The notes under the pieces are model-generated. The model saw only the letters and a list, made by a program, of their open reading frames with translations. It had not been told where the DNA came from and did not search any database. Made by a program: the position numbers and the translations under genes. Source: Bacteroidales bacterium (GTDB taxonomy: Bacteria > Bacteroidota > Bacteroidia > Bacteroidales > VadinHA17). Taken from it: a stretch of 64,000 bases of DNA. The DNA is taken from contig JALHSP010000062.1 of the NCBI GenBank assembly GCA_022865305.1, positions 209,522 through 273,521 of the forward strand, given 5' to 3'. This document shows, one piece after another, positions 12,412 through 44,053 of this stretch; positions within the stretch are counted from its first letter, which is position 1; each line of letters begins with the position of its first letter.

Positions 12412-12524
12412 TCCCCCCTTGATAAGGGCAACCCCCCAACCCCCCTAAAGGGGGGCTAAATTGTGCCCGTAATAGGGGCTAAGTAAGACAGATTTTAACC
12501 CCCCTAAAGGGGGGCCAGGGGGGT
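12412..12524. repeat. Bipartite CCCCCCTxxAGGGGGG element overlapping a CDS end
   Basis: Two CCCCCCTAAAGGGGGG palindromes are separated by about 36 bp that again carries the conserved inner ends (TTAAAATC and AATTTAG on the minus strand). Unlike the other copies it is read through: the last 20 or so codons and the stop codon of the upstream minus-strand gene fall inside it. Confidence 0.75.
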
Positions 12525-16871: not shown

Positions 16872-16913
16872 TAAATTTACACGTGAAAGTACACGAGTAA
16901 GTAAAATATTAAT
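16872..16913 (+). promoter_or_regulatory. Operator-like element, copy 1, with -7-like box
   Basis: TAAATTTA (16872-16879, TAnnTTTA type) is followed by CACGTGAAAGTACACGAGTAAG and GTAAAATATT, aligning with the elements at 20.76 and 36.44 kb through GAAAGTnnnCGnGTAA. Here the inverted-repeat reading is clearest (TTACaCGTG / CACGaGTAA). It ends about 20 bp before the start codon of the GH43-like gene. Confidence 0.6.
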
Positions 16914-16933
16914 ATTATAAAACCCAGGATAAA

Positions 16934-18598
16934 ATGAATAAAATAAACGGACTGATTTTTACCTTGTTAATAATTTCTGTATTATTTTCTGAGGTGCGCT
17001 CACAAACAACAGTCAGGGAACGACCTGCTGAATGGAACAATCTGGTTTTAGGAGGACGATTCATTGACCTGTTTCTTCCGATGCCGAATATTGGCAAGTT
17101 GACCAGTGATACCTGGGGAGCATCCAACGTTATTCCCCGGGATATTAAAAATGGTATTGAAAACAGGAAATACTCTTTCTGGGGAGGAAATATAGTGTTG
17201 GGAGATGATGGCAAATACCATTTATTTGTCTGTGGCTGGCTTGAAAGTTCTCCTAGGGGTCATGCAACATGGCCTAATTCCACTGTTTTTCATTCCGTTT
17301 CCGATAATTCATACGGTCCGTTTGTGGTAAAAGACACCATCGGGAAGGGGCACAATCCGGAAGTATACAGGCTCACAGATGGAAGATATGTTCTTTATGT
17401 AATCAATGGTTATTATCTTGCTGATGGGATTGATGGTCCATGGACGTTTAATAAGTTCGAATTCCTTAACCGTGACCGGCGCATTATCGATGGATTGTCC
17501 AATCTCACCTTTGCTCAACGGGAAGACGGATCATATCTGATGGTAAACCGTGGAGGAGGTATATGGTTCAGCCAGACAGGATTATCCCCATATAATCAGG
17601 TTACGGAAGTAAGGGTTTACCCTCCGGTTCAGGGGGCTTTTGAAGATCCTGTGGTCTGGCGGGACAATGTGCAGTATAACCTGATTGTAAATGACTGGCT
17701 TGGCCGGATTGCATTTTATCTGCGGTCAAAGGATGGTATCACCTGGGTTGTTGATCCGGGTGAAGCCTATTTGCCAGGTATATCAAGACATGAAGACAGA
17801 ACTGTTGAAGAGTGGTTCAAGTATGAGCGCATGAAAGTTTTCCAGGATGAATACGGACGGGCAATTCAGGCAAATTTCGCGGTAATTGATGTAGAAAAAA
17901 GATTAGATCAAAGCAGGGATAATCATAGTTCAAAGAATATATGCATTCCACTCACAGTTCCCCGACTACTGACAATACTTGATAAAAAACAGATTACTGC
18001 CACGACAAAAACCATCAAAGTAAAAATAGCCTCTGAACCTGGTTTTAATCCACATACAGATATTGATATAAACTTTTTAAGGTTTGGAGCACCCCTGGAA
18101 GTGAATTTCGGCAGAGGCTGCAAAGTGGCAAAAACTAAAAGGTCCGGAGACGATTTAATTGTCACCTTTAATGGAGAAGGTAATGGCATTACTGATGATG
18201 AATTTGCCGCAAAAATGATAGGCAAAACCAACGACGGGAAACTTCTTTTCGGATATGCACGTTTGCCATGGGTTACTTATAATGAACCAATACTCTCAGC
18301 CCGTTTACCTGAAATAACACCCAGCGACAATGGATTAAATATGAAGGTTGAAGTTCAGAACTTTGGACAGGTTGCTTCAAAACCTTCAAGACTGAAAATA
18401 GTGTACGTCAAAGATGAAAAGGAAATTGAAGCCGGCGCAGGAAATATTCCGGAACTAAATCCCTGGCAAAAGACAAATGTTGAGTTTACTTGCGGTAGAA
18501 TTTTCGATAAAGGTGTCGAGTATAGCTTAATCGTGATTATTAATCCTGAAGATTTAAAACCAGTTTTATTACATGGAAAGGTGACTCCGGTAAAGTAA
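16934..18598 (+). CDS. Secreted beta-propeller glycosidase-like protein (GH43-like) with C-terminal Ig-like domain
   Basis: This 554-residue protein has a signal peptide ending near residue 23 (VRSQ). Residues 45-330 read as a five-bladed propeller of GH43-like type: GGNIVLGDDGKYHLFVCG, then GHNPEVYRLTDGRYVLY, a FEDPVVWRDN blade and YLRSKDGITW. The FEDPVVW block resembles the acid/base region of GH43 and related families, but the family cannot be fixed. The last 100 residues (LKIVYVKDEKEIEAG...) look like a CARDB-type Ig domain. It is the first gene after operator-like copy 1 and directly precedes the GH27 gene, probably in one operon. Confidence 0.6.
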   Translation: MNKINGLIFTLLIISVLFSEVRSQTTVRERPAEWNNLVLGGRFIDLFLPMPNIGKLTSDTWGASNVIPRDIKNGIENRKYSFWGGNIVLGDDGKYHLFVCGWLESSPRGHATWPNSTVFHSVSDNSYGPFVVKDTIGKGHNPEVYRLTDGRYVLYVINGYYLADGIDGPWTFNKFEFLNRDRRIIDGLSNLTFAQREDGSYLMVNRGGGIWFSQTGLSPYNQVTEVRVYPPVQGAFEDPVVWRDNVQYNLIVNDWLGRIAFYLRSKDGITWVVDPGEAYLPGISRHEDRTVEEWFKYERMKVFQDEYGRAIQANFAVIDVEKRLDQSRDNHSSKNICIPLTVPRLLTILDKKQITATTKTIKVKIASEPGFNPHTDIDINFLRFGAPLEVNFGRGCKVAKTKRSGDDLIVTFNGEGNGITDDEFAAKMIGKTNDGKLLFGYARLPWVTYNEPILSARLPEITPSDNGLNMKVEVQNFGQVASKPSRLKIVYVKDEKEIEAGAGNIPELNPWQKTNVEFTCGRIFDKGVEYSLIVIINPEDLKPVLLHGKVTPVK

Positions 18599-18666
18599 AG
18601 GAATTTTGTCCCACACATATGCGGACCTGCCGGTAAACTGATGTTTTATCCTTAAATACTATAAAA

Positions 18667-20595
18667 ATGAAAACTAAACCAGAATTCCCTGATCAGAAAG
18701 CCACCAGGCTATTCCTCAAGTATTCAATCAGAATACTGTTAGTTATATTTGTTACCATGCCATTGGTTTTCCTTAGCCGGTGCCAGTCAAATAAAACCGG
18801 TACTTCCGAAGCTGAGGGGCTTGCCTTTCACAAGTGGGCGCCAATACCGCCGCTGGGATGGAACAGCTGGGATTGTTATGGTCCTACGGTTGTTGAAGAT
18901 GAAGTAAAGGCTAATGCCGATTATATGGCAAAAAATCTTAAAAAATTCGGATGGAATTATATTGTTGTTGATATCCGCTGGTATGTAGAAAACGATAAGG
19001 CCGGTGGTTATAACCAGGACAATCCTATTTACGCAATGGATGAGTATGGAAGATTTACTCCTGCAGTTAACCGGTTTCCTTCAGCAGCAAACGGGAACGG
19101 ATTTAAACCGCTTGCTGACTATGTTCACAGTAAAGGTTTGAATTTCGGTATTCATTTAATGCGTGGCATACCGGTAATAGCAGTGAATAAAAACACTCCG
19201 ATACTGGGGACTGATATTAAGGCACAGGATATTTACACACCCGAAGGCCAGTGCAGATGGCTCAGGGATATGTACACTGTGGTTGCCGAGAAGGAGGGAG
19301 CTCAGGAATATTACAATTCCCTGTTTCAGCTTTATGCATCATGGGGAGTTGATTTTGTGAAGGTTGATGATCTTTCCGCCAGGATAAAAGAAATTGAAAT
19401 GATCAGAAAAGCCATAGACAACTGCGGAAGACCTATTGTAATAAGCATATCACCGGGTGGAGACAGGCCGGAAAATGCTGAATTTCTGAAGAATAACGTC
19501 AATATGTGGCGTACCTCGAATGATTTCTGGGACAACTGGACGCAACTTAAGAATCAATTTGCGATTCTTGAAAGGTGGATAGGACTGGGCGGACAAGGTT
19601 ATTATCCTGATGGAGATATGCTGCCTCTTGGGAAAATCGGATTAAGGGCAGAAAGGGGAGAGCCCCGCTGGTCAGGATTCACGAAAGATGAACAGTACAC
19701 CTTAATGACTCTGTTCGCCATTTTCCGTTCTCCTTTGATGTTTGGCGGAGATCTTCCGAGTAATGATGAGTTTACACTATCACTGATTACCAATAAAGAT
19801 GTCCTGAATGTGAATCAGCACAGTATTAACGGGAAGCAGCTTTTCAGGGAGAATGATCTGATTGCATGGAGTGCTGACGATCCGAAGACAGGAGATAAAT
19901 ACCTGGCCCTTTTTAATGCTTCAGATCAGCAGCCAATTGTCGAAAGCAAGGCTATCTGGAAAAGTGAACAGATGACCAATGAAGCAGGCGATCAGAGTGT
20001 AGATGTTGATATAGATATTACCGGTGCAAAGAAATTATATCTTGTTACATCTTTTGATGATGTAATCGGATTTTCCAGCCACAATTGCGACTGGATTGAA
20101 CCTAAGCTTATTGGTCCCAAAGGAAGTATCAGCCTTACAGACCTGAAATGGATTAAAGCTTCAGCAGGACGGGGAATGCCTTCGATAAATCAGACAGCCA
20201 GAGGCGGAAAACTAACCGTTAACGGCACTGAATATAAAAACGGTATCAGTGCGAATGCGACCTCTATAATTGAATATGATTTACCGGAAGGAGTAACCAG
20301 GTTTCAGGTAAAAGCCGGTCTTGATAATGGCACTGCAGGTGGTGGTTTCCGTGGCCAGGGGCCTAATTCACAGTTTGTAATGCCAAATAATGGCAAATTT
20401 CTGGTCTTCACTGAAGATCCGGCCGGCCCTGTTCCACCTGATGCTACTGAAGTTTCAGTAAAATTTGAACAGTTTGGATTAACGGGAACCCATACTGTTA
20501 AAGATCTGTGGACAGGCGAAAAGCTGGGTAAGTTTACCGATGTTTTTTCTCAGAGTATAAACCGTCATGGAGCAGGACTTTACAGAATTCATTAA
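18667..20595 (+). CDS. Alpha-galactosidase, GH27, with NPCBM domain (lipoprotein)
   Basis: This hydrolyses terminal alpha-galactosides. After a long N-terminus with a hydrophobic helix and lipobox-like LSRC (about residue 39), the GH27 barrel starts at PPLGWNSWDCYG. The nucleophile region is DFVKVDD and the acid/base region is RTSNDFWDNW, both typical for the family. Residues about 500-642 form an NPCBM-like carbohydrate-binding domain (LKWIKASAGRG, NGTEYKNGISANA). 642 residues is normal for this architecture. It fits removal of galactose side chains before import by the adjacent SusC/SusD. Confidence 0.9.
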   Translation: MKTKPEFPDQKATRLFLKYSIRILLVIFVTMPLVFLSRCQSNKTGTSEAEGLAFHKWAPIPPLGWNSWDCYGPTVVEDEVKANADYMAKNLKKFGWNYIVVDIRWYVENDKAGGYNQDNPIYAMDEYGRFTPAVNRFPSAANGNGFKPLADYVHSKGLNFGIHLMRGIPVIAVNKNTPILGTDIKAQDIYTPEGQCRWLRDMYTVVAEKEGAQEYYNSLFQLYASWGVDFVKVDDLSARIKEIEMIRKAIDNCGRPIVISISPGGDRPENAEFLKNNVNMWRTSNDFWDNWTQLKNQFAILERWIGLGGQGYYPDGDMLPLGKIGLRAERGEPRWSGFTKDEQYTLMTLFAIFRSPLMFGGDLPSNDEFTLSLITNKDVLNVNQHSINGKQLFRENDLIAWSADDPKTGDKYLALFNASDQQPIVESKAIWKSEQMTNEAGDQSVDVDIDITGAKKLYLVTSFDDVIGFSSHNCDWIEPKLIGPKGSISLTDLKWIKASAGRGMPSINQTARGGKLTVNGTEYKNGISANATSIIEYDLPEGVTRFQVKAGLDNGTAGGGFRGQGPNSQFVMPNNGKFLVFTEDPAGPVPPDATEVSVKFEQFGLTGTHTVKDLWTGEKLGKFTDVFSQSINRHGAGLYRIH

Positions 20596-20607
20596 AAAGA
20601 AGTGATA

Positions 20608-20688
20608 ATGAAAAAAATACCGATTCCGGAAGATTGGTACAGACGCAAGCCTCTTCTATTTCAGTTTGCCCGGTTGCTGCTTAAATAA
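20608..20688 (+). other. 26-codon orphan ORF after GH27
   Basis: An ATG 12 bp after the GH27 stop, preceded by AAGAAGTG, opens a 26-residue reading frame (MKKIPIPEDWYRRKPLLFQF...). It has no signal peptide and I do not recognise it. It could be the truncated start of a lost gene or a leader peptide. Being this short, it may also be chance. Confidence 0.25.
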
Positions 20689-20973
20689 CAAGCGTGAAAA
20701 CAAGATAAAAAAAATTAATTAAGTCTTGTCAGTTTATAAAAAAAGAATAAATTTATATATTTAAGTAACCGCGAAAGTAACCGTGTAAACAAATACTAAA
20801 AAACAATCTTATGTCTAACCTAAATCAATCTGCCTATGGAAACAATTATTAAATGTGTCTGATTTGCTGCCAGGACATTATAGCCTGCGCAGCACCTGTC
20901 AAATTTAAATTCCGGGAAATTGTCCGGAAGAATTAAGTACAAAAATTTAGAGACTAACCAAAAAAAAATAAAA
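20689..20973 (+). other. SusC promoter and leader region
   Basis: The stretch holds operator-like copy 2 near 20.76 kb and then about 180 bp of leader before the SusC ATG. A 13-codon mini-ORF starts at 20811 (MSNLNQSAYGNNY). No clear terminator or riboswitch was seen. The TTG at 20920 used by the ORF track is unlikely to be the start. Confidence 0.4.
20756..20799 (+). promoter_or_regulatory. Operator-like element, copy 2, upstream of SusC
   Basis: TATATTTA (20756-20763) overlaps by one base a pair of 12-bp direct repeats, AAGTAACCGCGA and AAGTAACCGTGT (20763-20786), followed by AAACAAATACTAAA. The core GCGAAAGTnACCGTGTAA is shared with copy 3 at 36.44 kb. GTAACCG resembles a LacI-family half-site. 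Confidence 0.65.
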
Positions 20974-23900
20974 ATGGAAGACAGAAATAAATTTCTTGTT
21001 ATTCCTTTTAAAGTCCGTTCACTCCAGACTGCAAGTCAGGTATTAAAAGGCTTCATGATACTGGTGATGTTATTTTCTATCCAGGTCATTGGTATTAATG
21101 TGCATGCAGCCGAAATGCAACAGGCATCAGTTGCTGGGACAATAACTGACCAGGTGGGCAATCCTGTTGCAGGAGTGACAGTGACTTTAAAGGGAACTAC
21201 AACCGGCACATTAACAGATGTTGCCGGTAAGTATTCTTTACCAAATGTTCCGCAGAATGGTACACTGGTGTTTTCATTTATCGGAATGAGAACGCAGGAG
21301 ATTCCTGTAAGCGGACGTGGTACAATTGATGTGGTGATGGTCGAGGAAGCCATTGGGCTGGAAGAGGTGGTTGTTGTGGGTTACGGAACGCAAAAAAAGG
21401 TAAACCTGACAGGGTCGGTTGCTTCAGCAAGTGGAGATGAGCTTCTTAATCGTCCGGTATCAAGCTCCTCCGCCATGCTTGAGGGTTTAATGACCGGAGT
21501 GCAGGTTGTACAGGGCCGGGGTGAACCCGGGAATGAGAATACTTTGATAACTATCAGGGGAAGAGGCACATTCAGTAACGCAGGTTCAAATCCACTTATA
21601 TTGATAGATGGTGTTCAGGGTAATCTTGAAAATCTGAACCCAAATGATATTGAAAGCGTCTCGGTTCTTAAGGATGCTGCTTCTGCTTCAATTTATGGGG
21701 CACGTGCAGCCAACGGTGTTATTCTCGTTACAACCAAAATGGGAACGGAAGGAAGAATGAACATCGATTATAATGGCAGTTATGCTATATATACATGGAC
21801 CAAAATGTTAGATCTGGTAACTAATTCGGTTGAGTACATGGAGTTGTGGAACGAGGCCAAATTAAATACTGGAATTCCTACCGGTCTTTATACTCAGGAT
21901 ATTATTGATGCATATAAAAATGCAACTGATCGCGTTCAATATCCGAACACCGACTGGCTTAGCCTTGTCTTTGAACCGGCACCTACCCAAACCCACAACC
22001 TGAGTTTTAACGGAGGGAGCAGCACGACAAAGTACAATGTCTCCTTAGGCTATCTGGACCAGAAGGGTATTATGAAAGGGTTTAATTATAAAAGGTATAA
22101 TTTCCGGTTAAACCTCTCCTCTCAGATAAATAAGGCTGTAACTTTTGGTGGCAATATGGGAATGACCTATGGTTACAGGACTGGTGCCAGACAAGGATCA
22201 GAAGATCAGTTTATAGCCACGATGGCGCAGGCACCAACTTACGGTCCGTATCTCCCTGACGGAAGTGGACGGTACACATTTAAAGCTTATTCTTTTGAGT
22301 ATAACAATAAAAACCCGATAGTTATTGAGAAAGAACAGGCATGGTCGTGGCTACGCAGCTATGCCTTCACTTCGCAGGGATGGGTTGACGTAAAGATATT
22401 TAAAGGGCTGAACTGGTACACAAAAGGTGCTTTTAACCTGGACTTCAGCGATAACAGGGTTTTCAGGCCCCAGGTTCCGTTATATAATTTCCGTACCTAC
22501 GAATATATGACACTTTGTGATGTAGGCGGTGCAGGTATGAATGCAACAGATAACCTTGGCAGCTATCTTAACCTCTATTCTTATCTCAACTACGATCTTT
22601 CATTTGGTAACGGCCACTCTTTTAAAGCCCAGGCAGGCTACAACGTTGAATCAAGCACAAACCGTTCACTGACCGGGTATCGTCAGAAATATCCAAGTGA
22701 CGTTCTTAAGGAAATTGATGCCGGTACAGCTGAGATTCAGACAGCCGGTGGAAATACAAATCAATGGGCTATAATGTCATTCTTCGGACGGTTGAATTAC
22801 AATTATAAGGATCGTTACCTGTTTGAGGCAAACCTCAGATATGATGGAACTTCAAGGCTAAGTCCTCAGGGACGCTGGGGAGCATTTCCATCTTTCTCCG
22901 CAGCGTGGAGACCCACACAGGAGCCGTTTTTCCAGGATTTCGGATTAGGATGGCTTAACAATCTTAAGATTCGTGCATCGTATGGGACTCTTGGAAATCA
23001 GAACATCGGAAACTATCCGTATCAGGCAATGCTTTCTTTTACCGGGGCTTATCCTTTTGATGATTCGGCTTTATCTCCTGGTGTTGCACAAACAGCATTG
23101 AACAATCTGAATATCAAATGGGAAACAACAACGATCACCGACGTGGGATTTGACCTGACAGTTCTGAAGGGACTTTCTCTGACATTTGACTGGTATAATA
23201 AAATAACAACAGATATTCTGAGAAGTACTCAGGTAACGGGTGTTGTGGGCCTTTCTGCCCCGACAGTAAATAACGGGACGCTGAAGAACAGTGGTTATGA
23301 GGTGAGTCTCTCTTATAGTAACGCTGTTAAATCAGGGATATTGAACGGTCTGGTCTATAACGCCGGTGTGAATTTTGACCATTATAAGAATAAGCTCGTG
23401 GAATTTGGAGCCGAGGAGAAGTCTACAAGGACAATCCGTAAGGAAGGGCTGGAGTATGATGCATTCTATATGCTCGAATGGATAGGGATTTTCCAGACCG
23501 CAGATGAAGTTGCCACTTCCCCGAAACAATATAATGACAATACAGTACCAGGCGATTTAAAATGGAAAGACCAGATAACAGTTGATTCAAATGCAGATGG
23601 GATTCTTGATGCTACTGACGGTGTTATTAATGACAACGACCGGATCCCGATGAAAGGTCAGTATCCATCATTAAATTACTCCTTTAATGGAAGTGCCAGT
23701 TGGAAGGGACTTGATTTTTCGTTTCTCTTCCAGGGAGTTAGTGGAGATAAATTCTTTGTTACTGAATGGGGTGTAATACCATTCAACCAGGGGGCACCTC
23801 CAACTACCTATTGGCGTGACCGCTGGACACCGGAAAATCCTTCCGAGACTGTTCCTCGCATTTATTGGGGACGGCCTCCTCCTACTAAAATAGATCGTCC

Positions 23901-24147
23901 TTCTTCATATTATCTTCAGGATGCTTCTTATTTAAGATTGAAGAATTTAGCATTGGGATATGTCATTCCATCCAAACTTACGAAACGGATTGGAATTGAA
24001 AGGCTCAGAGTTTATTTCTCAGGTGATAACCTGCTGACATTCACACAATATCCGGGATTGGATCCGGAACGTAGTGGAAGCAGCACCCGGTTTGTCCAGT
24101 ACCCTCAGAATAAGATATATGCTTTTGGTGTAAACGTAAAATTTTAA
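20974..24147 (+). CDS. SusC-like TonB-dependent outer-membrane transporter
   Basis: This imports oligosaccharides across the outer membrane, powered by TonB, with its SusD partner. The start is placed at the ATG at 20974 (MEDRNKF...), and the signal hydrophobic stretch follows at about residues 30-50 (GFMILVMLFSIQVIG). In order: a CarboxypepD_reg-like domain (VAGTITDQVGNPVAGVTVTLKG), a TonB-box region around EEVVVVGYG, a plug domain (ITIRGRGTF, NPLILIDGVQG, ASIYGARAANGVILVTTK) and the barrel to the C-terminal VNVKF. At 1057 residues it is full length. No STN domain is seen, so it is not of the anti-sigma-coupled type. Confidence 0.95.
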   Translation: MEDRNKFLVIPFKVRSLQTASQVLKGFMILVMLFSIQVIGINVHAAEMQQASVAGTITDQVGNPVAGVTVTLKGTTTGTLTDVAGKYSLPNVPQNGTLVFSFIGMRTQEIPVSGRGTIDVVMVEEAIGLEEVVVVGYGTQKKVNLTGSVASASGDELLNRPVSSSSAMLEGLMTGVQVVQGRGEPGNENTLITIRGRGTFSNAGSNPLILIDGVQGNLENLNPNDIESVSVLKDAASASIYGARAANGVILVTTKMGTEGRMNIDYNGSYAIYTWTKMLDLVTNSVEYMELWNEAKLNTGIPTGLYTQDIIDAYKNATDRVQYPNTDWLSLVFEPAPTQTHNLSFNGGSSTTKYNVSLGYLDQKGIMKGFNYKRYNFRLNLSSQINKAVTFGGNMGMTYGYRTGARQGSEDQFIATMAQAPTYGPYLPDGSGRYTFKAYSFEYNNKNPIVIEKEQAWSWLRSYAFTSQGWVDVKIFKGLNWYTKGAFNLDFSDNRVFRPQVPLYNFRTYEYMTLCDVGGAGMNATDNLGSYLNLYSYLNYDLSFGNGHSFKAQAGYNVESSTNRSLTGYRQKYPSDVLKEIDAGTAEIQTAGGNTNQWAIMSFFGRLNYNYKDRYLFEANLRYDGTSRLSPQGRWGAFPSFSAAWRPTQEPFFQDFGLGWLNNLKIRASYGTLGNQNIGNYPYQAMLSFTGAYPFDDSALSPGVAQTALNNLNIKWETTTITDVGFDLTVLKGLSLTFDWYNKITTDILRSTQVTGVVGLSAPTVNNGTLKNSGYEVSLSYSNAVKSGILNGLVYNAGVNFDHYKNKLVEFGAEEKSTRTIRKEGLEYDAFYMLEWIGIFQTADEVATSPKQYNDNTVPGDLKWKDQITVDSNADGILDATDGVINDNDRIPMKGQYPSLNYSFNGSASWKGLDFSFLFQGVSGDKFFVTEWGVIPFNQGAPPTTYWRDRWTPENPSETVPRIYWGRPPPTKIDRPSSYYLQDASYLRLKNLALGYVIPSKLTKRIGIERLRVYFSGDNLLTFTQYPGLDPERSGSSTRFVQYPQNKIYAFGVNVKF

Positions 24148-24157
24148 ATTCAAAGAG

Positions 24158-25687
24158 ATGAAAAGAAATATATTTTTACTGATAATTATCTCTTTACTCG
24201 CATTAAATGCATGTGAAGATTACCTGGACCTGAATCCTCTTGACAGGATTTCTGCACCTACATACTGGAAAAAGAAGGCTGATTTTGATCAGGCATTAAC
24301 TGCAATTTATGGTCAGAGACAGGCAGCTCTCTTTACTTCTAACATGGGAGTCTGGGATTGCCTCACGGATAATGGCTATGCCCAGCATGAGTCATCAGTA
24401 AAAGAGATAGTAAATGGTAATGTAAGCCCTTCGTTAGGTGGTTATGCCTCATCCGTGTACAGTACTTGTTATGCCGGAATTGCAAGAATCAATGTATTTT
24501 TAAAAGAACTTGCAGCTTATACCGGCACTGATTTTACTGATGCAGCAAAAAAACAGGCTGAGGCAGAAGCCCGCTTTCACAGGTCTTATTACTATTTCCA
24601 ATTGTACAATATATATGGTGATGTACCCCTTGTCCTCGAGCCGGTAACTATTGAAACCATGAAAATGCCGAAAGAAACTGCTGATAAGATTCTGCAGCAG
24701 GCTCTGACTGATATTGATTTTGCCATTGCAAATCTTGGTACCGGATCATACGTTACAAGTAAGGGACGTCCGGTTAAAACATCAGCACAAGCGCTTAAAG
24801 CCCGGATTATGATATCCGAAGCATATGGAAATACCGGAACTCCGGATATCGCAATGTTAACACAGGTAAGAGATCTTTGCCTTGAAATAACGGGCACTAA
24901 CTACTATGCTTTGAGCCCGGTATTTACAGATGTATTCCAGGATAAAGGTCAAAAAGCACAACCCGGAATCAAGGAAATTATTTATTCTGTTAATTTCCTT
25001 GCTCCTAACAGTGTTACTTCTTGGGATCTTTGGTATGGTGACTGGATTGTAGCAAGTCCTCTGAGAAATTTTGTTAATTCGTTTGAATGTACTGATGGAC
25101 TTGCGTGGGGAGTATCTCCATTAACAGACCCGGCCAATGAAATGCTTAACCGTGACCCGAGGTTAGGGATGACTGTCTTTAAAGACAAACCGGATTGGGG
25201 AGGGGGGAATGTACATAATCCCACCAATGCACGTCCCACAACTTATGGCGTTAAAAAATTCCTATGTCCTGAAAACGTACCTTATGGTTATACGACCCTT
25301 AGCCAGCAGAATGCTGTAATTCTTCGTTTAGGTGAGGTATTATTAATGTATGCCGAGGCACAGAATGAAATCGCAGGTCCTGACGCAACAGTTTATCAGG
25401 CTATGACTGACCTCCGTGCACGGGTAGGCATGCCTCCTTTCCCTGATTTGTTGACTAAAGATGAGATGCGTGAAAGGATAAGGCATGAACGAAGAATTGA
25501 GCTCGCCTTTGAGGGACTGCGCTATTTTGATCTTAAAAGGTGGAGGATCGCCGGTACAGTATTAAATGCTGTCACGGATGGAATTGTAGTCTATAAGTTT
25601 TTAGATAAGCATTATAAATGGCCTCTGCCTCAAACTGAAATTGACAGGAGCGGGGGAGAGCTTGTTCAAAATCCTGATTATCTGTAG
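24158..25687 (+). CDS. SusD/RagB-like surface glycan-binding lipoprotein
   Basis: This lipoprotein caps the SusC barrel and binds glycan at the cell surface. The lipobox is ALNAC (Cys at about 19), followed by EDYLDLNPLDR, the standard SusD N-terminus. TPR-like helices (RFHRSYYYFQLYNIYGDVPL) and the C-terminal RHERRIELAFEGLRYFDLKRW are diagnostic. At 509 residues it is intact. It starts 10 bp after SusC and is certainly cotranscribed with it. A strong terminator follows at 25702. Its partner specificity cannot be read from the sequence. Confidence 0.95.
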   Translation: MKRNIFLLIIISLLALNACEDYLDLNPLDRISAPTYWKKKADFDQALTAIYGQRQAALFTSNMGVWDCLTDNGYAQHESSVKEIVNGNVSPSLGGYASSVYSTCYAGIARINVFLKELAAYTGTDFTDAAKKQAEAEARFHRSYYYFQLYNIYGDVPLVLEPVTIETMKMPKETADKILQQALTDIDFAIANLGTGSYVTSKGRPVKTSAQALKARIMISEAYGNTGTPDIAMLTQVRDLCLEITGTNYYALSPVFTDVFQDKGQKAQPGIKEIIYSVNFLAPNSVTSWDLWYGDWIVASPLRNFVNSFECTDGLAWGVSPLTDPANEMLNRDPRLGMTVFKDKPDWGGGNVHNPTNARPTTYGVKKFLCPENVPYGYTTLSQQNAVILRLGEVLLMYAEAQNEIAGPDATVYQAMTDLRARVGMPPFPDLLTKDEMRERIRHERRIELAFEGLRYFDLKRWRIAGTVLNAVTDGIVVYKFLDKHYKWPLPQTEIDRSGGELVQNPDYL

Positions 25688-25701
25688 GTCATAATCAATT
25701 T

Positions 25702-25736
25702 AAAAGTGAGAGGCTTCAGACCTCTCACTTTTTTTT
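25702..25736 (+). terminator. Intrinsic terminator after SusD
   Basis: AAAAGTGAGAGG pairs perfectly with CCTCTCACTTTT across a short CTTCAGA loop and runs into a T-tract. This is the clearest terminator in the window and separates the SusC/SusD unit from the downstream enzymes. Confidence 0.85.
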
Positions 25737-25826
25737 GAAGGCTTGCCGGTTTTCCTTTTAGGACAGACATACTTACAAAGAGAATGCGTAGATTCATGAG
25801 GTATGCTTTAAATACTGACTCAATAA

Positions 25827-27098
<1,272 letters not shown>

Positions 27099-27198
27099 TA
27101 ATTAAAGAAATAAGGTTAGATTTACTTGTTTATCATTTGAGTTATGCAATGGAATAAGTATTAAGTCCCTCTGTTTATTCGTTTAAATCCAAAATAAA

Positions 27199-28197: not shown

Positions 28198-28225
28198 TCT
28201 AATGTAAATTATTAAATCAAATACT

Positions 28226-29920
28226 ATGAGAACTAACCTTAAATTATTGCTTATCTCTCTTGTCTGCCTGTTTTACATAAACCCAGTATTAGCCCAGATA
28301 CCTTTCCTTAAAAGGAATGAAAATGATGTCACCCAACTGATTGTGCATGGGAAACCTTTTTTAATGTTTGCAGGAGAAGCAAACAATTCATCAGGATCGA
28401 ATATTGCACACATGGAAAAAACCATGAAATCGCTTAAGGAAGCCAATCTGAATTCATTGCTTGTGTCCGTTTCGTGGGAAATTATTGAACCACAGGAAGG
28501 AGTATTTGATTTCACTTCCGTGGATGAGCTTATAAGAGTTGCCAGGGAAAATGATATGAAATTGTGCATTTTGTGGTTTGCCTCGTGGAAAAACGGGTTC
28601 TCGCCATACTCTCCAATGTGGGTATTGAATGATACAAAACGTTTTCTCAGGGTGAAAGACGAAAAGGGTCAGAATACAAGAACTCTTACTCCATTATGTA
28701 ATGCAACAAGAGATGCAGATGCAAAGGCATATGCCGCATTAATGAAACATATAGCATCAGTCGACAGTGAAAAAAATACCATAATTGCCATGCAGATTGA
28801 AAATGAGGCAGGTGTTCTTCGTCAGACAAGGGATTTCAGTGCTGAGGCCAATAAAGCAATTGCATCACAGGTACCTGATGTATTGATTCAATATATGGTA
28901 AAAAACAAAAAGACACTTGAGATTGAGCTGAAAACTGCCTGGGAGAAAAATGGTTCTAAAACAAAAGGAACATGGAGTGAAGTATTTGACCCGGGTGATG
29001 ATGCTGATCTTTTCTTTATGGCCTGGAATTATTCCAAATTTGTTAATGCAGTTGCTGAAGCCGGCAAGAAGGAATATAATCTGCCGATGTTTGCCAACTG
29101 CTGGATGCCTCAGCCAAGACCGAATCCAGGCAAACCAGGAAATTATCCGAGTGGCGGTCCTATTGTTACTGTTCTTGATATATGGAAAGCAGGAGCTCCT
29201 TCGGTCGACATACTGGCACCCGATCTTTATGGCGCAGATTTCAAAGTTCAGGTAAACAATTTTCACAGGGCTGATAATCCATTGTTTATTCCTGAAACCA
29301 ACACAACCGATGGTCCTGCAAGCTGGGCATTTGCAGAAGAAGATGCAATATGCTTTTCCCCGTTTGGAATCGATAACAGGGGAAATGTGATGGAGAAAGA
29401 ATATGGGCTGTTAAACCAGTTAATGCCGGTTATAACTCAATACCAGGGAACCGGTAAGATGTTCGGAATTTATAAACATCGGGGAGATTCCACAACCGGT
29501 CGCGAATTCACATTAAATAATGATGTAAAAGTATCAGTTACCTATTCGCGTGGATTTATGCGTCCACCTTCCGCAACAGCTGCAGCTGCAACACCAGGAA
29601 CAAATAACCCGATGGCTCAGCAAAATCAGGAGCCTTCTTCTTATGGCATTTTCATTCAAACAGGAGAGAACGAATTTATTGTAGCAGGTTTTAACCTGTC
29701 CGTCAGTGCTTCTTCAATAAATCCAAAGAAAGAAATCTGGTTAAAAGATGCATGGGAGGGAACTTATGAAAACGGAGTATGGAAACCAAAAATGCTTCAT
29801 AACGGAGATGAGGCAGGATTTCTGAGAAGCGATAATCCTACTTACGGAATAAGGGCATACAGGACAAATCCTCCTGAACCGGCAATATTCAATTTCAAAG
29901 TTTTGGTTTATGACCGTTAA
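28226..29920 (+). CDS. Secreted GH35-like beta-galactosidase with DUF5597
   Basis: This 564-residue protein (signal peptide to about residue 23, PVLAQ) has a GH35/GH42-type barrel. GKPFLMFAGEANNSSG is the entry motif, SWEIIEPQEGVFDF follows, the acid/base is in MQIENEAG, and the nucleophile is probably in FIPETNTTDG. The C-terminal part is a DUF5597-like domain (GYFVQTGENEF-like, seen as GIFIQTGENEFIVAG). It removes terminal beta-galactose or a related sugar. A Pro/Ala/Gln-rich insert near residue 450 (29573-29640) resembles inserts in neighbouring genes. Its 3' end overlaps the ORF-track start of the next frame by 11 bp. Confidence 0.85.
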   Translation: MRTNLKLLLISLVCLFYINPVLAQIPFLKRNENDVTQLIVHGKPFLMFAGEANNSSGSNIAHMEKTMKSLKEANLNSLLVSVSWEIIEPQEGVFDFTSVDELIRVARENDMKLCILWFASWKNGFSPYSPMWVLNDTKRFLRVKDEKGQNTRTLTPLCNATRDADAKAYAALMKHIASVDSEKNTIIAMQIENEAGVLRQTRDFSAEANKAIASQVPDVLIQYMVKNKKTLEIELKTAWEKNGSKTKGTWSEVFDPGDDADLFFMAWNYSKFVNAVAEAGKKEYNLPMFANCWMPQPRPNPGKPGNYPSGGPIVTVLDIWKAGAPSVDILAPDLYGADFKVQVNNFHRADNPLFIPETNTTDGPASWAFAEEDAICFSPFGIDNRGNVMEKEYGLLNQLMPVITQYQGTGKMFGIYKHRGDSTTGREFTLNNDVKVSVTYSRGFMRPPSATAAAATPGTNNPMAQQNQEPSSYGIFIQTGENEFIVAGFNLSVSASSINPKKEIWLKDAWEGTYENGVWKPKMLHNGDEAGFLRSDNPTYGIRAYRTNPPEPAIFNFKVLVYDR

Positions 29921-29972
29921 TAAAACTTGCTCAATCTGTTTTTTTGATAGATATACATATAATCTGAAAAGT

Positions 29973-31708
29973 ATGGCAGGAAAATTTCTATTACTTTTCT
30001 TTTTACTCATCAGGTTTATTGGTGAAACACAGGCACAAACAGCAATTTATGTCTCTCCAGACGGGAGCGACAAAAACAAAGGGAGTAAGGAGAAACCATA
30101 TGCAACCATTGGTAAAGCACAAATCGAAGCAAGACAAAAAAAAGAAGCCGTAAATATAATCCTTCGGGGCGGGACCTATTATTTAACCCAACCAGTAATT
30201 ATTACTTCACAGGACTCCAGACCTGTCGATGCTCCCGTTGTGTACAAATCTTACCCGGGCGAAAATGTTGTGATCAGCGGAGCTGTCCCTTTGAAACTGA
30301 AATGGAATCCATGCAAAAATGGGATATGGCAGGCAAAGGTTGAAAAACATGTGATTTTTGATCAGCTATTTGTAAACGGTAAACTTCAGCGGATGGCCAG
30401 GTATCCAAATTATAACCCGAAAGCAAGGTTCCTTGGTGGCACAGCCGCAGATGCATTGAGTGCTGAACGCATAAAAAAATACAAAAATCCTGAAGGAGCT
30501 TATGTTCATGCTTTACATTCAGCTGAATGGGGTGATTTTCATTATGTTGTAAAAGGCAGGGATGAAAAGGGAGAACTTGTGCTTGAGGGAGGCTGGCAAA
30601 ATAACAGGCGTATGGGAATGCTGTCTATTTCAGTAATTATAACAGGAAAAATGAAGTATCCGGATGCATTATTTCCTGTGCAGGAGCAAGTGCGGTGAGC
30701 TTCGTGGGAGACCATGAAGCTGTTCGCTCACCCAGTTTCGAGTACAATGAATTTGTTCCGTATAAATCATTGGATCTGATCCCGGGACCAAAAACAAATA
30801 ATTTTCCTGCAAAATGCTTTGTATATGATAACCTTATTCATAACATAGGATATACCGAAAAACAGAGCTCCGGAGTACAGATTTCCATGTCGCAGGAGAT
30901 TACAATTTCGCATAATACAATATACGATGTTCCCCGTGCAGGGATCAACATCAGTGAAGGAACATGGGGCGGACATATGATTGAATACAACGATGTTTTC
31001 AATACTGTACTTGAAACAGGTGACCATGGCTCGTTTAATTCCTGGGGCCGCGACAGGTTCTGGCATCCTGACCGGCGCACCATGGACAGCCTGGCTGCTG
31101 CACATCCGGAACTTATACTGCTGGATGCTGTCAAAACAACTACTCTCCGCTTTAACCGTTTCCGTTGCGATCACGGCTGGGATATTGACCTGGATGACGG
31201 ATCTTCCAACTATGAGATTTATAATAACTTATGCTTAAACGGAGGGATTAAGCTCAGGGAAGGATTTTTCCGCATTGTATATAATAATATTATGATCAAC
31301 AACTCATTTCACCCGCATGTCTGGTTTAAGGACAGCAGGGATGTTTTTATGCATAATATTGTATCTACACCATATGCGCCGATAAGAGTACCATATTATG
31401 GGAATTTTATTAATCATAATGCTTTCCGCGATTCTGCATCACTTGTGAGGGCACAGCGGAATAAAACTGACCTTAACTCGGTTTTCGGAAATCCAAAGTT
31501 CATTGATCCGGCGAATGGTAATTACCAGGTAGCTGAAGGATCTCCTGCACTTAAATGCGGTTTTATAAATTTTGAGATGGATAAATTTGGGGTTGTCTCC
31601 CCCAAATTAAAGGCAATGGCAAAAAAAATTGCACTGCCTGCAGCAATTGTTATAACAGAACAGAAAGGTAATGAGATCACTGAATTTATAGTATTTAATC
31701 CAAATTAG
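29973..31708 (+). pseudogene. Broken right-handed beta-helix protein
   Basis: An ATG at 29973 opens a signal peptide (MAGKFLLLFFLLIR...TQAQ) and a start typical of DUF1565-type parallel beta-helix proteins: IYVSPDGSDKNKGSKEKPYAT. After EGGWQNNRR the frame continues only as unrelated residues to a TGA at 30696. The other frame then carries YGNAVYFSNYNRK and continues through SFVGDHEAVRSP, GINISEGTWGGH and DIDLDDGSSNY to 31708. The central part expected between these two halves (about 200 residues) appears to be missing, so this is a deletion plus frameshift, not a simple indel. The GTG start at 30695 gives a protein without signal peptide or first rungs. Confidence 0.8.
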
Positions 31709-31929
31709 AATTTCAATTCTGTAATTTTAAAAACACGAACAAGCTTCTCAACACAATTTCTATTTCATATATGAATACAATTCCCAACTAAAGAAGAAAC
31801 TTTTTAAAATCAATTGCCATGAGCAGCATGTCTGGACTGATTATTCCCTGGTTTCCTGATATTAATACATAATTTTCTTATGCGATCCGTAAATTTTTAA
31901 AGAGTACTTAAATCATTAAACTGCCTTAT

Positions 31930-33537
31930 ATGAAAAGAATATTACGATTTTCATTGATTCTGATTCTGAATTATTGTATGCTTTATAGTTTATCGGGACA
32001 AGTCACCGGTAAGCTGCCAAGAAGTACCCCTGAAGCAGAAGGTGTTTCTTCAAAAGATATTATTGATTTCCTGAATGCAATAGATACCGGTAAAATTGAG
32101 ATACATAGTTTTATTTTCATGCGGCATGGTAAGATAATTGCAGAAGGCTGGTGGAATCCATATGGCCCGGATCTGAAGCATTTAATGTATTCCGCAAGTA
32201 AGACCTTTGCTGCTACCGGGGTGGGACTTGCAATTGCGGAAAACAAATTAAGCCTGTCTGATAAAGTGGTCTCATTCTTTCCTGCATCTCTTCCGGATAC
32301 ATTAAGCGAGTTTATGAAGATGATGACTGTAAAGGATCTGTTAACAATGTCTGTGGGACAGGATGCTGAACCACGGAGAGGGCAAAATGATGACTGGATT
32401 AGATCCTTTCTCGAAAAAGCTCCGGTTTATAAACCCGGAACAACTTTTAAGTATAATAACACAGCATCCTTCATACTTTCTGCAATAGTTCAGCAGGTTA
32501 CAAATCAATCCCTTTTCGATTACCTTCTCCCAAGAATATTTCAGCCCTTAGGTATCCGCGGGATTGACTGGGATCTTAATCCCCAGGGAATTAACCTGGG
32601 ACTTATGGGATTAAGGCTTCGTACCGAGGATATGGCAAAATTCGGACAATTATTATTGCAGAATGGTGAATGGAATGGCAGACAACTGATCCCTAAAGAA
32701 TGGGTTAAAGAGGCGACTACTTTCAAGATTAAAAGTCAGGGAGGAACTGATAAAATCCCTCCGGAAATAAATGACTGGTACCAGGGATACTGTTACCAGA
32801 TGTGGAGAGGTAAGAACAATAGTGTAAGGCTGGATGGTATGGCAGGACAATTTGTAATTCTGGTACCTGATAAAGATGCTATTGTGGTATTGACAGCTAA
32901 TGCATCGGATACCCAGAAGGAGATGGATCTTGTCTGGACATACCTTCTTTCTGCAATTAAAGGTAGCAAGCCTTTACCTGCTGATCCTGAGATTAATACC
33001 GAACTTCAAAGAAAGCTGGCATCACTTTCTGTTCGACCTGCTCCGATGAAATCCGTTGTATCAACTTTTACCTCAAGGATCTCAGGAAAATCAGTCGAAT
33101 TCCAATCAAACAATTATGGGATCCAGGCGCTGGGATTTAAATTTAATAATGATATTTGTGAGCTGGCAATCAAAAGAGATAATATTACTTATTATATTAA
33201 AGCTGGCCAGGATATCTGGAAATATTCCGGAACAAATCTATCATCCCTGTTTTCAGGTCCCCGGACAAATGTTTCGAAATCTATAGATGCAAATTACGGG
33301 ATAATTCAACCGACTATCAAGTTAGCTGCAAGTTACTCATGGACAGATAAAAACACTCTTGAATTAACTGCACGTTTTGTTGAAGAGAGTCTTGGCTCCG
33401 AAGGGTTCATCTGCAGGTTCACAGAAGAGGGAGGAGCCATTAATGTAATTCTTGAACGTAAGACCGGCAGAGGTATACGAATGGGACCGGGAGTACAGAC
33501 AACTCCCATAGTTTTAAATGGTAAGGTTATTGAATGA
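31930..33537 (+). CDS. Secreted serine hydrolase, beta-lactamase (class C) superfamily
   Basis: This 535-residue protein has a signal peptide to about residue 24. It carries the SxxK motif in YSASKTFAATG and the YxN motif in KYNNTASF, with a third motif probably in LDGMAGQ. The family contains esterases, D-aminopeptidases and lactamases; in polysaccharide loci it is usually an esterase-like enzyme. The last 180 residues form a separate beta-rich domain of unknown role. It opens a group with the mutarotase (45 bp gap) and the GH50-like lipoprotein. A relic of another member is at 35910. Confidence 0.8.
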   Translation: MKRILRFSLILILNYCMLYSLSGQVTGKLPRSTPEAEGVSSKDIIDFLNAIDTGKIEIHSFIFMRHGKIIAEGWWNPYGPDLKHLMYSASKTFAATGVGLAIAENKLSLSDKVVSFFPASLPDTLSEFMKMMTVKDLLTMSVGQDAEPRRGQNDDWIRSFLEKAPVYKPGTTFKYNNTASFILSAIVQQVTNQSLFDYLLPRIFQPLGIRGIDWDLNPQGINLGLMGLRLRTEDMAKFGQLLLQNGEWNGRQLIPKEWVKEATTFKIKSQGGTDKIPPEINDWYQGYCYQMWRGKNNSVRLDGMAGQFVILVPDKDAIVVLTANASDTQKEMDLVWTYLLSAIKGSKPLPADPEINTELQRKLASLSVRPAPMKSVVSTFTSRISGKSVEFQSNNYGIQALGFKFNNDICELAIKRDNITYYIKAGQDIWKYSGTNLSSLFSGPRTNVSKSIDANYGIIQPTIKLAASYSWTDKNTLELTARFVEESLGSEGFICRFTEEGGAINVILERKTGRGIRMGPGVQTTPIVLNGKVIE

Positions 33538-33582
33538 GAAAAAAGGGATTTTATACAACAATTCTAAACTAATTCTAAAAAT

Positions 33583-33906
33583 ATGAAAAGATATGGTCAG
33601 ATAATAGGAGTAAAACCGGAGGATTTTGAGCGGTATAAAAAATACCATGCTGCAGTATGGCCGGAGGTTCTTGATATGATAAAAAAGTGTAACATTCATA
33701 ACTATTCGATCTTTCATAAAGACAACAGGCTTTTTGCATATTTTGAGTACACTGGCTATGATTTTGAAGCCGATATGGCTAAAATGGCTGCTGATTCGAA
33801 AACTCAGGAATGGTGGGCAATCATGGAACCGATGCAGGATCCCGTGTCAACACGAGTTAAAGGTGAATGGTGGGCAAATATGGAAGAAGTTTTCCATATG
33901 GACTGA
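33583..33906 (+). CDS. L-rhamnose/L-fucose mutarotase family protein
   Basis: This 107-residue cytosolic protein of the RhaM family interconverts anomers of 6-deoxyhexoses. Family signatures are YGQIIGVKPEDFERYKKYHAAVWPEV, the SIFHKDNRLFAYFEY strand and the C-terminal EWWANMEEVFHMD. The length matches the family. It is one of the few enzymes here without an export signal, so it works on sugar already imported. Together with FucP and the fucosidases, it suggests that L-fucose or L-rhamnose reaches the cytosol. Confidence 0.9.
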   Translation: MKRYGQIIGVKPEDFERYKKYHAAVWPEVLDMIKKCNIHNYSIFHKDNRLFAYFEYTGYDFEADMAKMAADSKTQEWWAIMEPMQDPVSTRVKGEWWANMEEVFHMD

Positions 33907-33971
33907 CAGAATTATAAAGTCATTACTTCTAACGAAATGCCAGAACGAAGTGTTAATTAAAGTAACAAACA

Positions 33972-35885
33972 ATGAACAAAAATATTCTGAGTGGTATTAT
34001 CTGCATCTCTTTGCTGTTTACATGCTGCAGCAAACAAACGGATATTAAATTTGCTTTTAGTGACGGAGATATTTCGAAACATTCTTTTTCGACTGCCTCT
34101 GTTAATCCTGATCTTCCTTCGGACTGGTCTGATTACAAATACATGATACTTACATTCCAGGCATCTTCATCGCAAAGATTTGAAGTAGGTCTGAGAAATC
34201 CTGATGGTTATTTATTTAAAAGGATCCATCCTTTTGCCGGGGCACTTGTACGGTTTGTTGTCCCGCTTGATTTTTACAGGGAACAACCTACACGAGGGAA
34301 TGATATGGCCGCTACCTGGAATCAGCCACGCACCATGGGATGGATAAATGTGGAACACGGAGGTTTCGGGAAAGTGGGAATTATTGACAGTATAATGTTC
34401 AGAATGATAAAACCTCTGAATAATCCTACCCTGGAAATAAAATCTGTTAAGCTTTCAATGACCGATCCCGGGGATTCATTATTGTCGCCAAAGGTTCTGG
34501 TTGATGAATTTGGCCAGTGGATTCCCGACACATGGGAGGGGAAAGTCAATAACTTTGAGGAGTTGAAAGCAATCTGGGATCTTGAAGATAAAAACCTTAC
34601 ACCGGGTGATTTTAATTACGGGAAATTCGGGGGCTATCTGAATACACAGGTGAAAGCCACCTGTTTCTTCAGAGTTGAGAAGATAAACAACCGCTGGTGG
34701 TTTGTTGATCCTGAAGGACATCTGTTTTTATCGACGAGTGCAAACGGTATTGGATCGGGATCTACAGGCACAACAATGAGGGGACGCGATTCTATTTTCA
34801 AAATGATACCGCCCCCACCACCTCAGAATCCGGCTATGAGTCAGCAGCAGGGAGCTCAGCCTCAGAACCGTATGATGGAGAATCGTCCCAGAAGTCTTAA
34901 TTTCCTCGGCTGGAATCTCCAGCGCCGTTATGGAGAAAGCTGGAGAGAGAAATCTACTGAAATGACAATCCGCAGGATAAATGCATGGGGATTTACAACA
35001 GGTTCCCAATCATTGCAAAAACCTTATATCACATATTTCAGAGCTTTTGGAGGCGGTGCGGAAATAATGGGTATTCCTGATGTATATTCAAAAGCATTCA
35101 CAGATAATGTTGAGCAAAGAGCCAAAGAACAACTGGGGGCTCAAAAGGATAATCCATGGATAATAGGATACTTTATCGGGAATGAGCCGCCATGGCCGAA
35201 CAGGGAGTCACTGGCTGTCACAAAACTACTTGAAGGCCCCGATACTGATACACGTAAAGCTCTGGTTGAATTTTTGAAAGAAGGAGATACTCCTGAAAGG
35301 AGGATAGAGTTTTGTAAACAAACATTCCAGAAGAATCTTGATATTATGACCGGGGCAATCAGAAAATACGATCCGAACCATATTATTCTCGGAATCAGGT
35401 TTGGCGGGACACCACCGGATTATATAATTAAGATGGCTGGTATTTTTGATATTTACAGTCTTAATACTTATGCATACAGACCGGACCCCGATTATCTTGA
35501 CAAGGTAAGTTCCCTTTCGGGAAGACCTGTATTGATTGGTGAATACCACTTCGGTACCCCCGGGAGGGGCATGGCTTCCGGTTTATGCCAGGTAAAAGAT
35601 CAGTATAACAGGGGAGTCGCTTACAGGTACTATACCGAAAATGCTTTTTCACATCCTTCAGTTATCGGTGCTCACTGGTTCCAGTGGACCGACCAGGCAA
35701 ATACAGGCAGGAATGATGGTGAGAATTATAACATCGGTATAATCGATGTAACTGACCGTCCATATAAGGAACTTACTGATGCGATAACTCTAACTCATAA
35801 AAACCTTTTCAGGGTGCATGCAGGGGAAATGCCTCCCTCAGATATTTTACCGGAAGGAAGAGTAAAGGTGGATTTTAAATATTAA
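33972..35885 (+). CDS. Lipoprotein glycoside hydrolase, GH50-like TIM barrel
   Basis: This 637-residue lipoprotein (FTCCSK, lipid Cys at about 16) starts with a beta-sandwich carbohydrate-binding-like domain to about residue 180. It continues as a barrel resembling beta-agarase-type GH50 proteins: DEFGQWIPDTWEGK, NRWWFVDPEGHLFLS, acid/base GYFIGNEPPWP and nucleophile LIGEYHFGTP. The two Glu positions fit a retaining clan-A glycosidase. The exact substrate may be a galactan. A Pro/Gln/Met-rich insert (PPPPPQNPAMSQQQ, 34808-34890) lies in the barrel. It starts 65 bp after the mutarotase. Confidence 0.65.
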   Translation: MNKNILSGIICISLLFTCCSKQTDIKFAFSDGDISKHSFSTASVNPDLPSDWSDYKYMILTFQASSSQRFEVGLRNPDGYLFKRIHPFAGALVRFVVPLDFYREQPTRGNDMAATWNQPRTMGWINVEHGGFGKVGIIDSIMFRMIKPLNNPTLEIKSVKLSMTDPGDSLLSPKVLVDEFGQWIPDTWEGKVNNFEELKAIWDLEDKNLTPGDFNYGKFGGYLNTQVKATCFFRVEKINNRWWFVDPEGHLFLSTSANGIGSGSTGTTMRGRDSIFKMIPPPPPQNPAMSQQQGAQPQNRMMENRPRSLNFLGWNLQRRYGESWREKSTEMTIRRINAWGFTTGSQSLQKPYITYFRAFGGGAEIMGIPDVYSKAFTDNVEQRAKEQLGAQKDNPWIIGYFIGNEPPWPNRESLAVTKLLEGPDTDTRKALVEFLKEGDTPERRIEFCKQTFQKNLDIMTGAIRKYDPNHIILGIRFGGTPPDYIIKMAGIFDIYSLNTYAYRPDPDYLDKVSSLSGRPVLIGEYHFGTPGRGMASGLCQVKDQYNRGVAYRYYTENAFSHPSVIGAHWFQWTDQANTGRNDGENYNIGIIDVTDRPYKELTDAITLTHKNLFRVHAGEMPPSDILPEGRVKVDFKY

Positions 35886-35909
35886 TCTTCAGATTTTATA
35901 ATCTGCTCT

Positions 35910-36311
35910 ATGAAAAGAGATTATTTATTGACAGAAACTTCTATACAAATCCGTTGTTACCTGGTTCTTCTAATGATTTCCCTCAATGTTTCAGGGCAGA
36001 AGCTGACGGTTGATAAACCTGAAAATATAGGTCTTTCATCAGACCGGCTTATGCGTATTGATAATGTGATGAACGAAGGTATAATGGGGGACAAGTTTGG
36101 TTTGGGATTTGGAATACGCACAGAACGCGGAGTTTATGATGAACTTGAATCAATCGGGACTTTTGGTTGGGATGGAGCTTTTTATACCCGTTTCTGGGTT
36201 GATCCGAACGAAGACCTTATCGGCATTTTCTTATCACAGGTCGATAATTACTGGAGCGAAAATCTGATAGGCAAATTCAGGGTTCTTGTCTATCAGTCAA
36301 TTTCAGACTAA
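35910..36311 (+). pseudogene. Internally deleted beta-lactamase-family relic
   Basis: The 133-codon frame starts with a hydrophobic leader and PENIGLSSDRLMRIDNVM, the usual opening of a class C beta-lactamase-like serine hydrolase. It then jumps to its C-terminal part: FGLGFGIRTE, GTFGWDGAFYTRFWVDP and the terminal helix ENLIGKFRVLVYQSI. The SxxK and YxN motifs and most of the catalytic domain (about 200-250 residues) are absent. The reading frame is still open, so it would make a short dead protein. It follows the GH50-like gene by 24 bp. Confidence 0.8.
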
Positions 36312-36432
36312 ATGTTTATATTTAAAATTATAATTCCTTTTTTTAACTTCGGGCCCTTAAATTGGATGTAAAAAAAATTTCATTGAAATTAATAGCAAAA
36401 ATAATTTGCAAGGGGAAAATTATTATTACTTT

Positions 36433-36480
36433 TATATTTATAAGTAATCGCGAAAGTTACCGTGTAAGTAAATATTAAAT
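36433..36480 (+). promoter_or_regulatory. Operator-like element, copy 3, upstream of the epimerase gene
   Basis: TATATTTA (36433-36440) is followed by 12-bp repeats AAGTAATCGCGA and AAGTTACCGTGT and a partial third (AAGTAAATATTAAA), starting at 36442. The core GCGAAAGTTACCGTGTAA differs from copy 2 at one position. It ends about 10 bp before the start codon, so a bound protein would block transcription initiation or elongation. Confidence 0.65.
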
Positions 36481-37492: not shown

Positions 37493-37505
37493 ACCCTCCA
37501 GGGTA

Positions 37506-43975: not shown

Positions 43976-44053
43976 AATGATAATCAAAAACTCTGAAAAT
44001 AAATGATACAATTTGATTAGTTTTACATGATTATTTTAAATGCTGAATCCAAA

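Follow-up and report, generated by a model that had tools for sequence, protein, structure and literature searches.

The locus and its genes

The window is the whole stretch of DNA that was analysed (64,000 nucleotides of contig JALHSP010000062.1, from a Bacteroidales bacterium). It includes three transcription units, each preceded by a copy of one short intergenic element and by a promoter box, and a gene encoding a LacI-family regulator (Table 1). The cluster also encodes a GH95 enzyme.

Table 1. Genes, operator copies and promoter boxes of the locus (positions in the window)
Feature	Position	Strand	Characteristics
-7-type promoter box (TAnnTTTR) of unit 1	16872..16879	+	TAAATTTA; -10 from first CG
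Putative operator copy 1, class A	16878..16901	+	12-bp units TACACGTGAAAG / TACACGAGTAAG; kept in orthologous loci
First gene of unit 1	16934..18598	+	554 aa; no Pfam/NCBIfam match
GH27 alpha-galactosidase-type protein, unit 1	18667..20595	+	PF16499
-7-type box of the SusC/SusD unit	20748..20755	+	TAAATTTA; -22 from first CG
Putative operator copy 2, class B	20766..20789	+	12-bp units TAACCGCGAAAG / TAACCGTGTAAA
SusC-type TonB-dependent receptor	20974..24147	+	PF07715, PF00593; ATG 20974, ORF opens 20920
SusD-type lipoprotein	24158..25687	+	PF07980, PF14322
-7-type box of the epimerase unit	36427..36434	+	TACTTTTA; -22 from first CG
Putative operator copy 3, class B	36445..36468	+	12-bp units TAATCGCGAAAG / TTACCGTGTAAG; precedes the same gene in many relatives
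SDR protein	36491..37492	+	Closest solved relative GDP-mannose 3,5-epimerase (2c59_A, E 4e-98)
Cytidylyltransferase-like protein	37506..38642	+	PF01467
GH29 alpha-L-fucosidase	38714..40255	+	PF01120
FucP-type L-fucose permease	40299..41597	+	TIGR00885, 423 bits (cut-off 280)
LacI-family regulator, proposed repressor	44027..45073	+	Recognition helix SRVTVSK, hinge ARQL

The relative of the plant-type GDP-mannose 3,5-epimerase and the nucleotidyltransferase-like protein that follows it (36491-38642) are encoded in a cluster for catabolism (fucosidase, FucP); relatives keep this pair beside the operator, and its role may be in L-galactose metabolism. Predicted proteins of 554, 637 and 537 aa (16934-18598, 33972-35885 and 12445-14058, respectively) have no Pfam match; the first two also have no NCBIfam match, and their homologues are found in related clusters. 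The 133-aa ORF at 35910-36311 resembles the beta-lactamase-fold family PF00144, the match being limited to the C-terminal part of the family, and may be what remains of a domain or one piece of a split gene; similar short matches are found in relatives (L070, L087, L135). A PDDEXK_3-family protein (PF13366, 123 aa, 5012-5383) is encoded amid the glycan-degradation genes.

The regulator carries a LacI-type HTH and a periplasmic-binding-protein-like core (PF00356, 39.7 bits for a cut-off of 27; PF00532, 114.5; PF13377, 86.3). It aligns to CcpA over residues 12-344, and the LacI fold is kept. The conserved Ala and Leu of the hinge helix (ARxL) are found as ARQL in the window protein and as ARxL or a close form in the alignment. 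The ORF opens at 44027; 44054 (MVNVRQ...), the start given in the first-pass annotation, is the likelier one by alignment. The same annotation counted a single LacI-type regulator, and no second transcription regulator appeared among those window proteins that were searched with Pfam. No operator was found upstream of the regulator's own gene in the window genome.

Sequence and specificity of the three copies

The cores GAAAGTnnnCGnGTAA, reported earlier at 16885, 20773 and 36452, are present exactly as written. All are intergenic and on the + strand, and the window includes no further match at 0-1 mismatches. Aligned on their CG, the three copies are tandems of two 12-bp units T-W-M-N-C-G-N-G-W-A-A-G, with CG centres 12 bp apart. 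Agreement between the two units is 10/12 (copy 1), 9/12 (copy 2) and 8/12 (copy 3). Copies 2 and 3 are thus direct repeats of 12 bp, as first described, but copy 1, previously set apart as an inverted repeat, is the best direct repeat of all; the palindrome CACGTG makes it legible as an inverted repeat too. A palindrome with a central CG is found in part, the left half having one mismatch in copy 1 and two in copies 2 and 3.

The 19-mer CGNGAAAGTNNNCGNGTAA has three exact matches in the genome (4.98 Mb), which are the three copies and lie in one cluster, none at 1 mismatch and a background level of matches at 2 mismatches; the pattern was derived from the window sites, so these counts indicate specificity, not significance. 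A matrix was trained on 26 orthologous sites of other genomes, the window genome being excluded. It gives scores of 45.0 (the maximum), 42.1 and 28.9 for copies 1, 2 and 3, and 15.6 for the runner-up, located within an ORF (about 326,000 positions scanned), with some circularity as the training sites were retrieved using the window consensus. The first-pass annotation had proposed such a scan and expected background-rate hits if its proposal were wrong; the three sites score well above all other scanned positions. A match in the same genome (C34) and matches outside the genus (G046, G053) lie within ORFs, have near-background scores and were rejected.

Promoter phase and site classes

A TAnnTTTA box had been noted just before each core. 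The boxes are present; their placement is stricter than this wording, as it follows two fixed registers. Across orthologues and relative to the first CG, TAnnTTTR begins at -10 in all 13 sites of class A (copy-1-type) and at -22 in 13 of the 16 sites of class B (copy-2/3-type). The difference is exactly one 12-bp unit, so that class B looks like class A shifted one unit downstream; an AT-rich remnant (TTTATATTTTAAAG for TTTACACGTGAAAG) replaces the first unit. In related genomes, most class A sites (consensus TTTACACGTGAAAGTACACGWGTAAGTAA) precede the GH27/GH95-like unit; two precede the epimerase gene and one the LacI gene. Class B sites (consensus AAGTAATCGCGAAAGTTAYCGTGTAAGTAA) mostly lie ahead of the GDP-mannose 3,5-epimerase-like gene, at a distance of 40-50 bp. 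The flanks vary across orthologous sites; the lattice of 12-bp units and the -7 register are conserved. A -33 TTG is found in 5/13 class A and 11/16 class B sites (raw counts).

Conservation and co-occurrence with the regulator in the genus

Within the genus, 20 of 62 genomes have the site at no more than 1 mismatch, located in the same gene cluster. The comparison of orthologous upstream regions, also proposed at first pass, retrieved the same sites before the same genes. An orthologue of the window LacI protein (57-85% identity) is encoded by 19 of these genomes. Both are found in 16 genomes, LacI only in 3, the site only in 4 and neither in 39. The site is therefore found in 16/19 genomes encoding the regulator vs 4/43 others (Fisher p 1.3e-8, uncorrected for relatedness). 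The genomes with LacI only are G007, whose contig is truncated, and G024 and G070, whose sites are diverged but still 12-bp tandems. A strict three-unit pattern is absent from 198 genomes of the class and yielded no further loci.

No LacI orthologue was found in G025, G016, G028 and G082 despite well-conserved sites (L132:9509, L133:3827, L136:12724, L134:15806, L135:10347). Incomplete assemblies may explain some of these cases. In G025 (96% complete), the site precedes a GH31 gene on a large contig without adjoining regulator, and the cluster looks reduced. The regulator may have been lost recently, its gene may be unlinked and lie in the part that the assembly lacks, or the site may serve another regulator. 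The other LacI proteins of G025 are unlikely users of this site, as their helices differ (SPSTVSK, SIGTVDR, SGTLVSL).

Distant homologues

An orthologue-alignment scan of 85,462 species' genomes gave 80 loci. Many of the distant LacI homologues (39-66% identity), from Bacteroidota, Ignavibacteriota, Calditrichota, KSB1 and others, show the same architecture ahead of the LacI gene: TACCCGCGAAAGTTCGCGAGTAAGT (L164, 58% identity), TACACGTGAAAGTTACCGAGTAAGT (L170, Melioribacter, 57%), TACCCGTGAAAGTACACGAGTAAGT (L173, Calditrichaceae, 55%) and TAACCGATAAAGTTATCGGTTAAGT (L178, KSB1, 43%). The pattern TWMNCGNNWAAGTWMNCGNNWAAGT is found at no more than 2 mismatches within 200 bp upstream in 34/80 loci, the reversed pattern in 0/80 and shuffles in 0/800. 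As this pattern was composed after inspection of the upstream regions, the spacing of half-sites is a cleaner test. Among 60 distant upstream regions, 20 have half-sites CGNNWAAG spaced by 12 bp on the same strand (expected 0.00); every other spacing from 6 to 30 bp is found in 0 or 1 region, and exact half-sites at 13 bp in none of the 60. Half-sites on opposite strands sharing one CG, i.e. the palindrome CTTWNNCGNNWAAG, are found in 16/60 regions (expected 0.02), and 13 of 16 exact palindromes have a 12-bp partner. Beyond the half-sites, the distant sites have little in common with the window consensus. On the sequences compared, the 12-bp spacing is near-obligate and ancient.

The longest array seen includes four units spaced by 12 bp, TACCCGTGAAAG TACACGCGAAAG TACACGAGAAAG TTATCGGGAAAG (L172:2336-2385), immediately ahead of the LacI gene at 2394. 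In the Melioribacter group (L194, L218, L220, L222), the 12-bp tandem is kept upstream of the LacI homologue but the central CG is changed to CA or CC (e.g. TTATCAATAAAGTAAACCATAAAGT); a T at residue 15 of the recognition helix accompanies this change.

In LacI proteins, half-site bases are recognised by residues 15/16 and 20 of the DNA-binding domain, according to the published code (PMC2978694). All members shown have K at residue 20, and their sites have T where those of R20 regulators have G. All scored homologues with CGNG units carry R at residue 15 (19/19) and all those with CGNT units carry K, T or V (26/26), these bases being assigned by hand from the listed sites. On the protein tree, the R group is a single well-supported clade, so this agreement amounts to one joint change and is weaker than independent changes would be.

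Proposed operator and mechanism

Each element is very probably an operator of the LacI repressor encoded at 44027-45073, composed of two overlapping CG-centred operators 12 bp apart. A single LacI regulon covering the three transcription units, as suggested at first pass, is supported by the orthologous sites, the co-occurrence with LacI, the elements upstream of distant LacI genes and the agreement between helix and site. A direct repeat of 12 bp had been judged odd for a LacI dimer, and rightly so: each unit is a probable LacI operator and the two overlap. At 12 bp, two 14-bp units share 2 bp and one inner half-site is always imperfect. Because the shared 2 bp fit only one palindrome (AG vs CT), the pair looks like a direct repeat and copy 1 can be read both ways.

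A dimer bound to the CG-centred unit of copy 1 would cover the -7 box and the start region and block RNA polymerase. On copies 2 and 3, it would cover the early transcribed region, one unit further on, and also block RNA polymerase. Both positions would follow from the phasing of the lattice to the -7 box. The dimer would bind either register, one at a time, which would widen the blocked stretch and raise occupancy. A sugar from the target glycan would bind the core domain and release the repressor. An L-fucose- or L-galactose-type sugar is the natural guess for this inducer, given the GH27, SusC/SusD, GH29, FucP-type permease and GH95 proteins of the cluster. Exclusive registers are the simplest and most likely reading; simultaneous binding would be the interesting one.

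Alternative explanations

It is possible, if unlikely, that at least two dimers of the same repressor occupy the lattice simultaneously in a non-canonical mode, giving cooperative, switch-like repression. Three or four DNA-binding domains would be engaged, neighbours being about 51 degrees apart around the helix, and the dimers would wind along the promoter as a helical array (at most four units, in L172), a binding mode absent from solved LacI complexes. The exact 12-bp spacing across several phyla suggests that the lattice itself is read; the four-unit array and the one-unit phase shift between site classes point the same way, and overlapping LacI sites, argued to be functional, may need a special binding mode (PMC4052901). 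However, the shared bases always fit just one inner half-site. Furthermore, LacI contacts extend about seven bp from the centre (PMC4052901), so that the right and left DNA-binding domains of adjacent dimers would compete for the same groove. If true, simultaneous dimers on adjacent units would make a cooperative switch along the promoter.

Head-to-tail bridging of two right-hand half-sites by one dimer, the central palindromes being unused, is improbable. It would account for class B sites, in which both right halves are good and neither left half is, and CytR is a LacI member able to use direct repeats (PMC3454398). But half-sites lie back to back on one CG in 16/60 distant upstream regions, the hinge motif ARxL is conserved, and the spacing is fixed at 12 whereas the spacers of CytR vary.

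Binding of the repeat by another regulator (e.g. an AraC-type HTCS), with the LacI gene no more than linked, is very unlikely. The four genomes with sites and no LacI orthologue would fit it, as would the common occurrence of HTCS on direct repeats in such loci (PMC3878776); against it, in several phyla the element immediately precedes LacI genes, HTCS repeats are on average 21 bp apart instead of 12, and scanning of parts of the clusters revealed no other regulator.

That the element is part of an RNA leader, or a chance similarity, is scarcely credible. It does lie at or after the presumed transcription start, and the fold of copy 1 is somewhat better than that of shuffled sequences (z -2.4). 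This does not hold for copies 2 and 3 (z 1.2 and -0.5), so that a leader structure was rejected, and the flanks differ whereas the lattice and the -7 register are conserved; chance is excluded by the orthologous loci, the distant upstream regions, the spacing test and the matrix scores.

Comparison with known systems

As in the HTCS and SusR motifs of Bacteroides, direct repeats would control genes for polysaccharide utilisation. The spacing is about 21 bp for HTCS and 67-77 bp for SusR (PMC3878776) vs 12 bp here, and both belong to other protein families, none of which was found in the scanned window proteins. A fucose-type glycan cluster would here form a local LacI regulon; the regulators usually expected in this group are HTCS and SusR.

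CytR operators are also direct-repeat sites of a LacI-family regulator. They have variable half-site spacing (a spacer of about 1 bp in direct repeats), a weak consensus and CRP dependence (PMC3454398); here, by contrast, the spacing is fixed at 12 bp and the hinge motif is conserved. CcpA (1rzr, 2hsg) is the closest solved relative of the regulator, with a common fold over residues 12-344 and a CG-centred operator. Its cre is a single palindrome of 14-16 bp, and its helix is SMATVSR vs SRVTVSK here.

The canonical LacI operator is an even palindrome with a central CG (PMC4052901, PMC2978694). A 2014 survey described LacI sites that overlap, with a distance of about 13 bp, before 110 operons; its authors argued for their function but could not reconcile them with known structures (Ravcheev et al. 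2014, PMC4052901). Standard LacI structures likewise cannot fill units spaced by 12 bp with two repressors at once. No 12-bp LacI lattice was found in the open-access literature (weak evidence of absence).

The closest case is GntR at gntKU of Escherichia coli, where two CG-type LacI palindromes overlap in a way that bars side-by-side canonical dimers (PMC4052901); the operator centres of gntK are 13 bp apart, as measured in this analysis. Here too, the centres are closer than one site length. The spacing differs from the 13-bp peak of the survey (PMC4052901): it is exactly 12 bp and near-obligate. The present sites also differ from gntKU in forming arrays that reach four units and in their fixed promoter phase, and the regulator subfamily and the genes differ. 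The present case appears to be of the kind reported in 2014 (PMC4052901), with a different, exact spacing of 12 bp and near-obligate use. Near-obligate and exact spacing, natural arrays of two and four units and the one-unit shift between classes make this subfamily a system in which the overlap question raised in 2014 can be tested.
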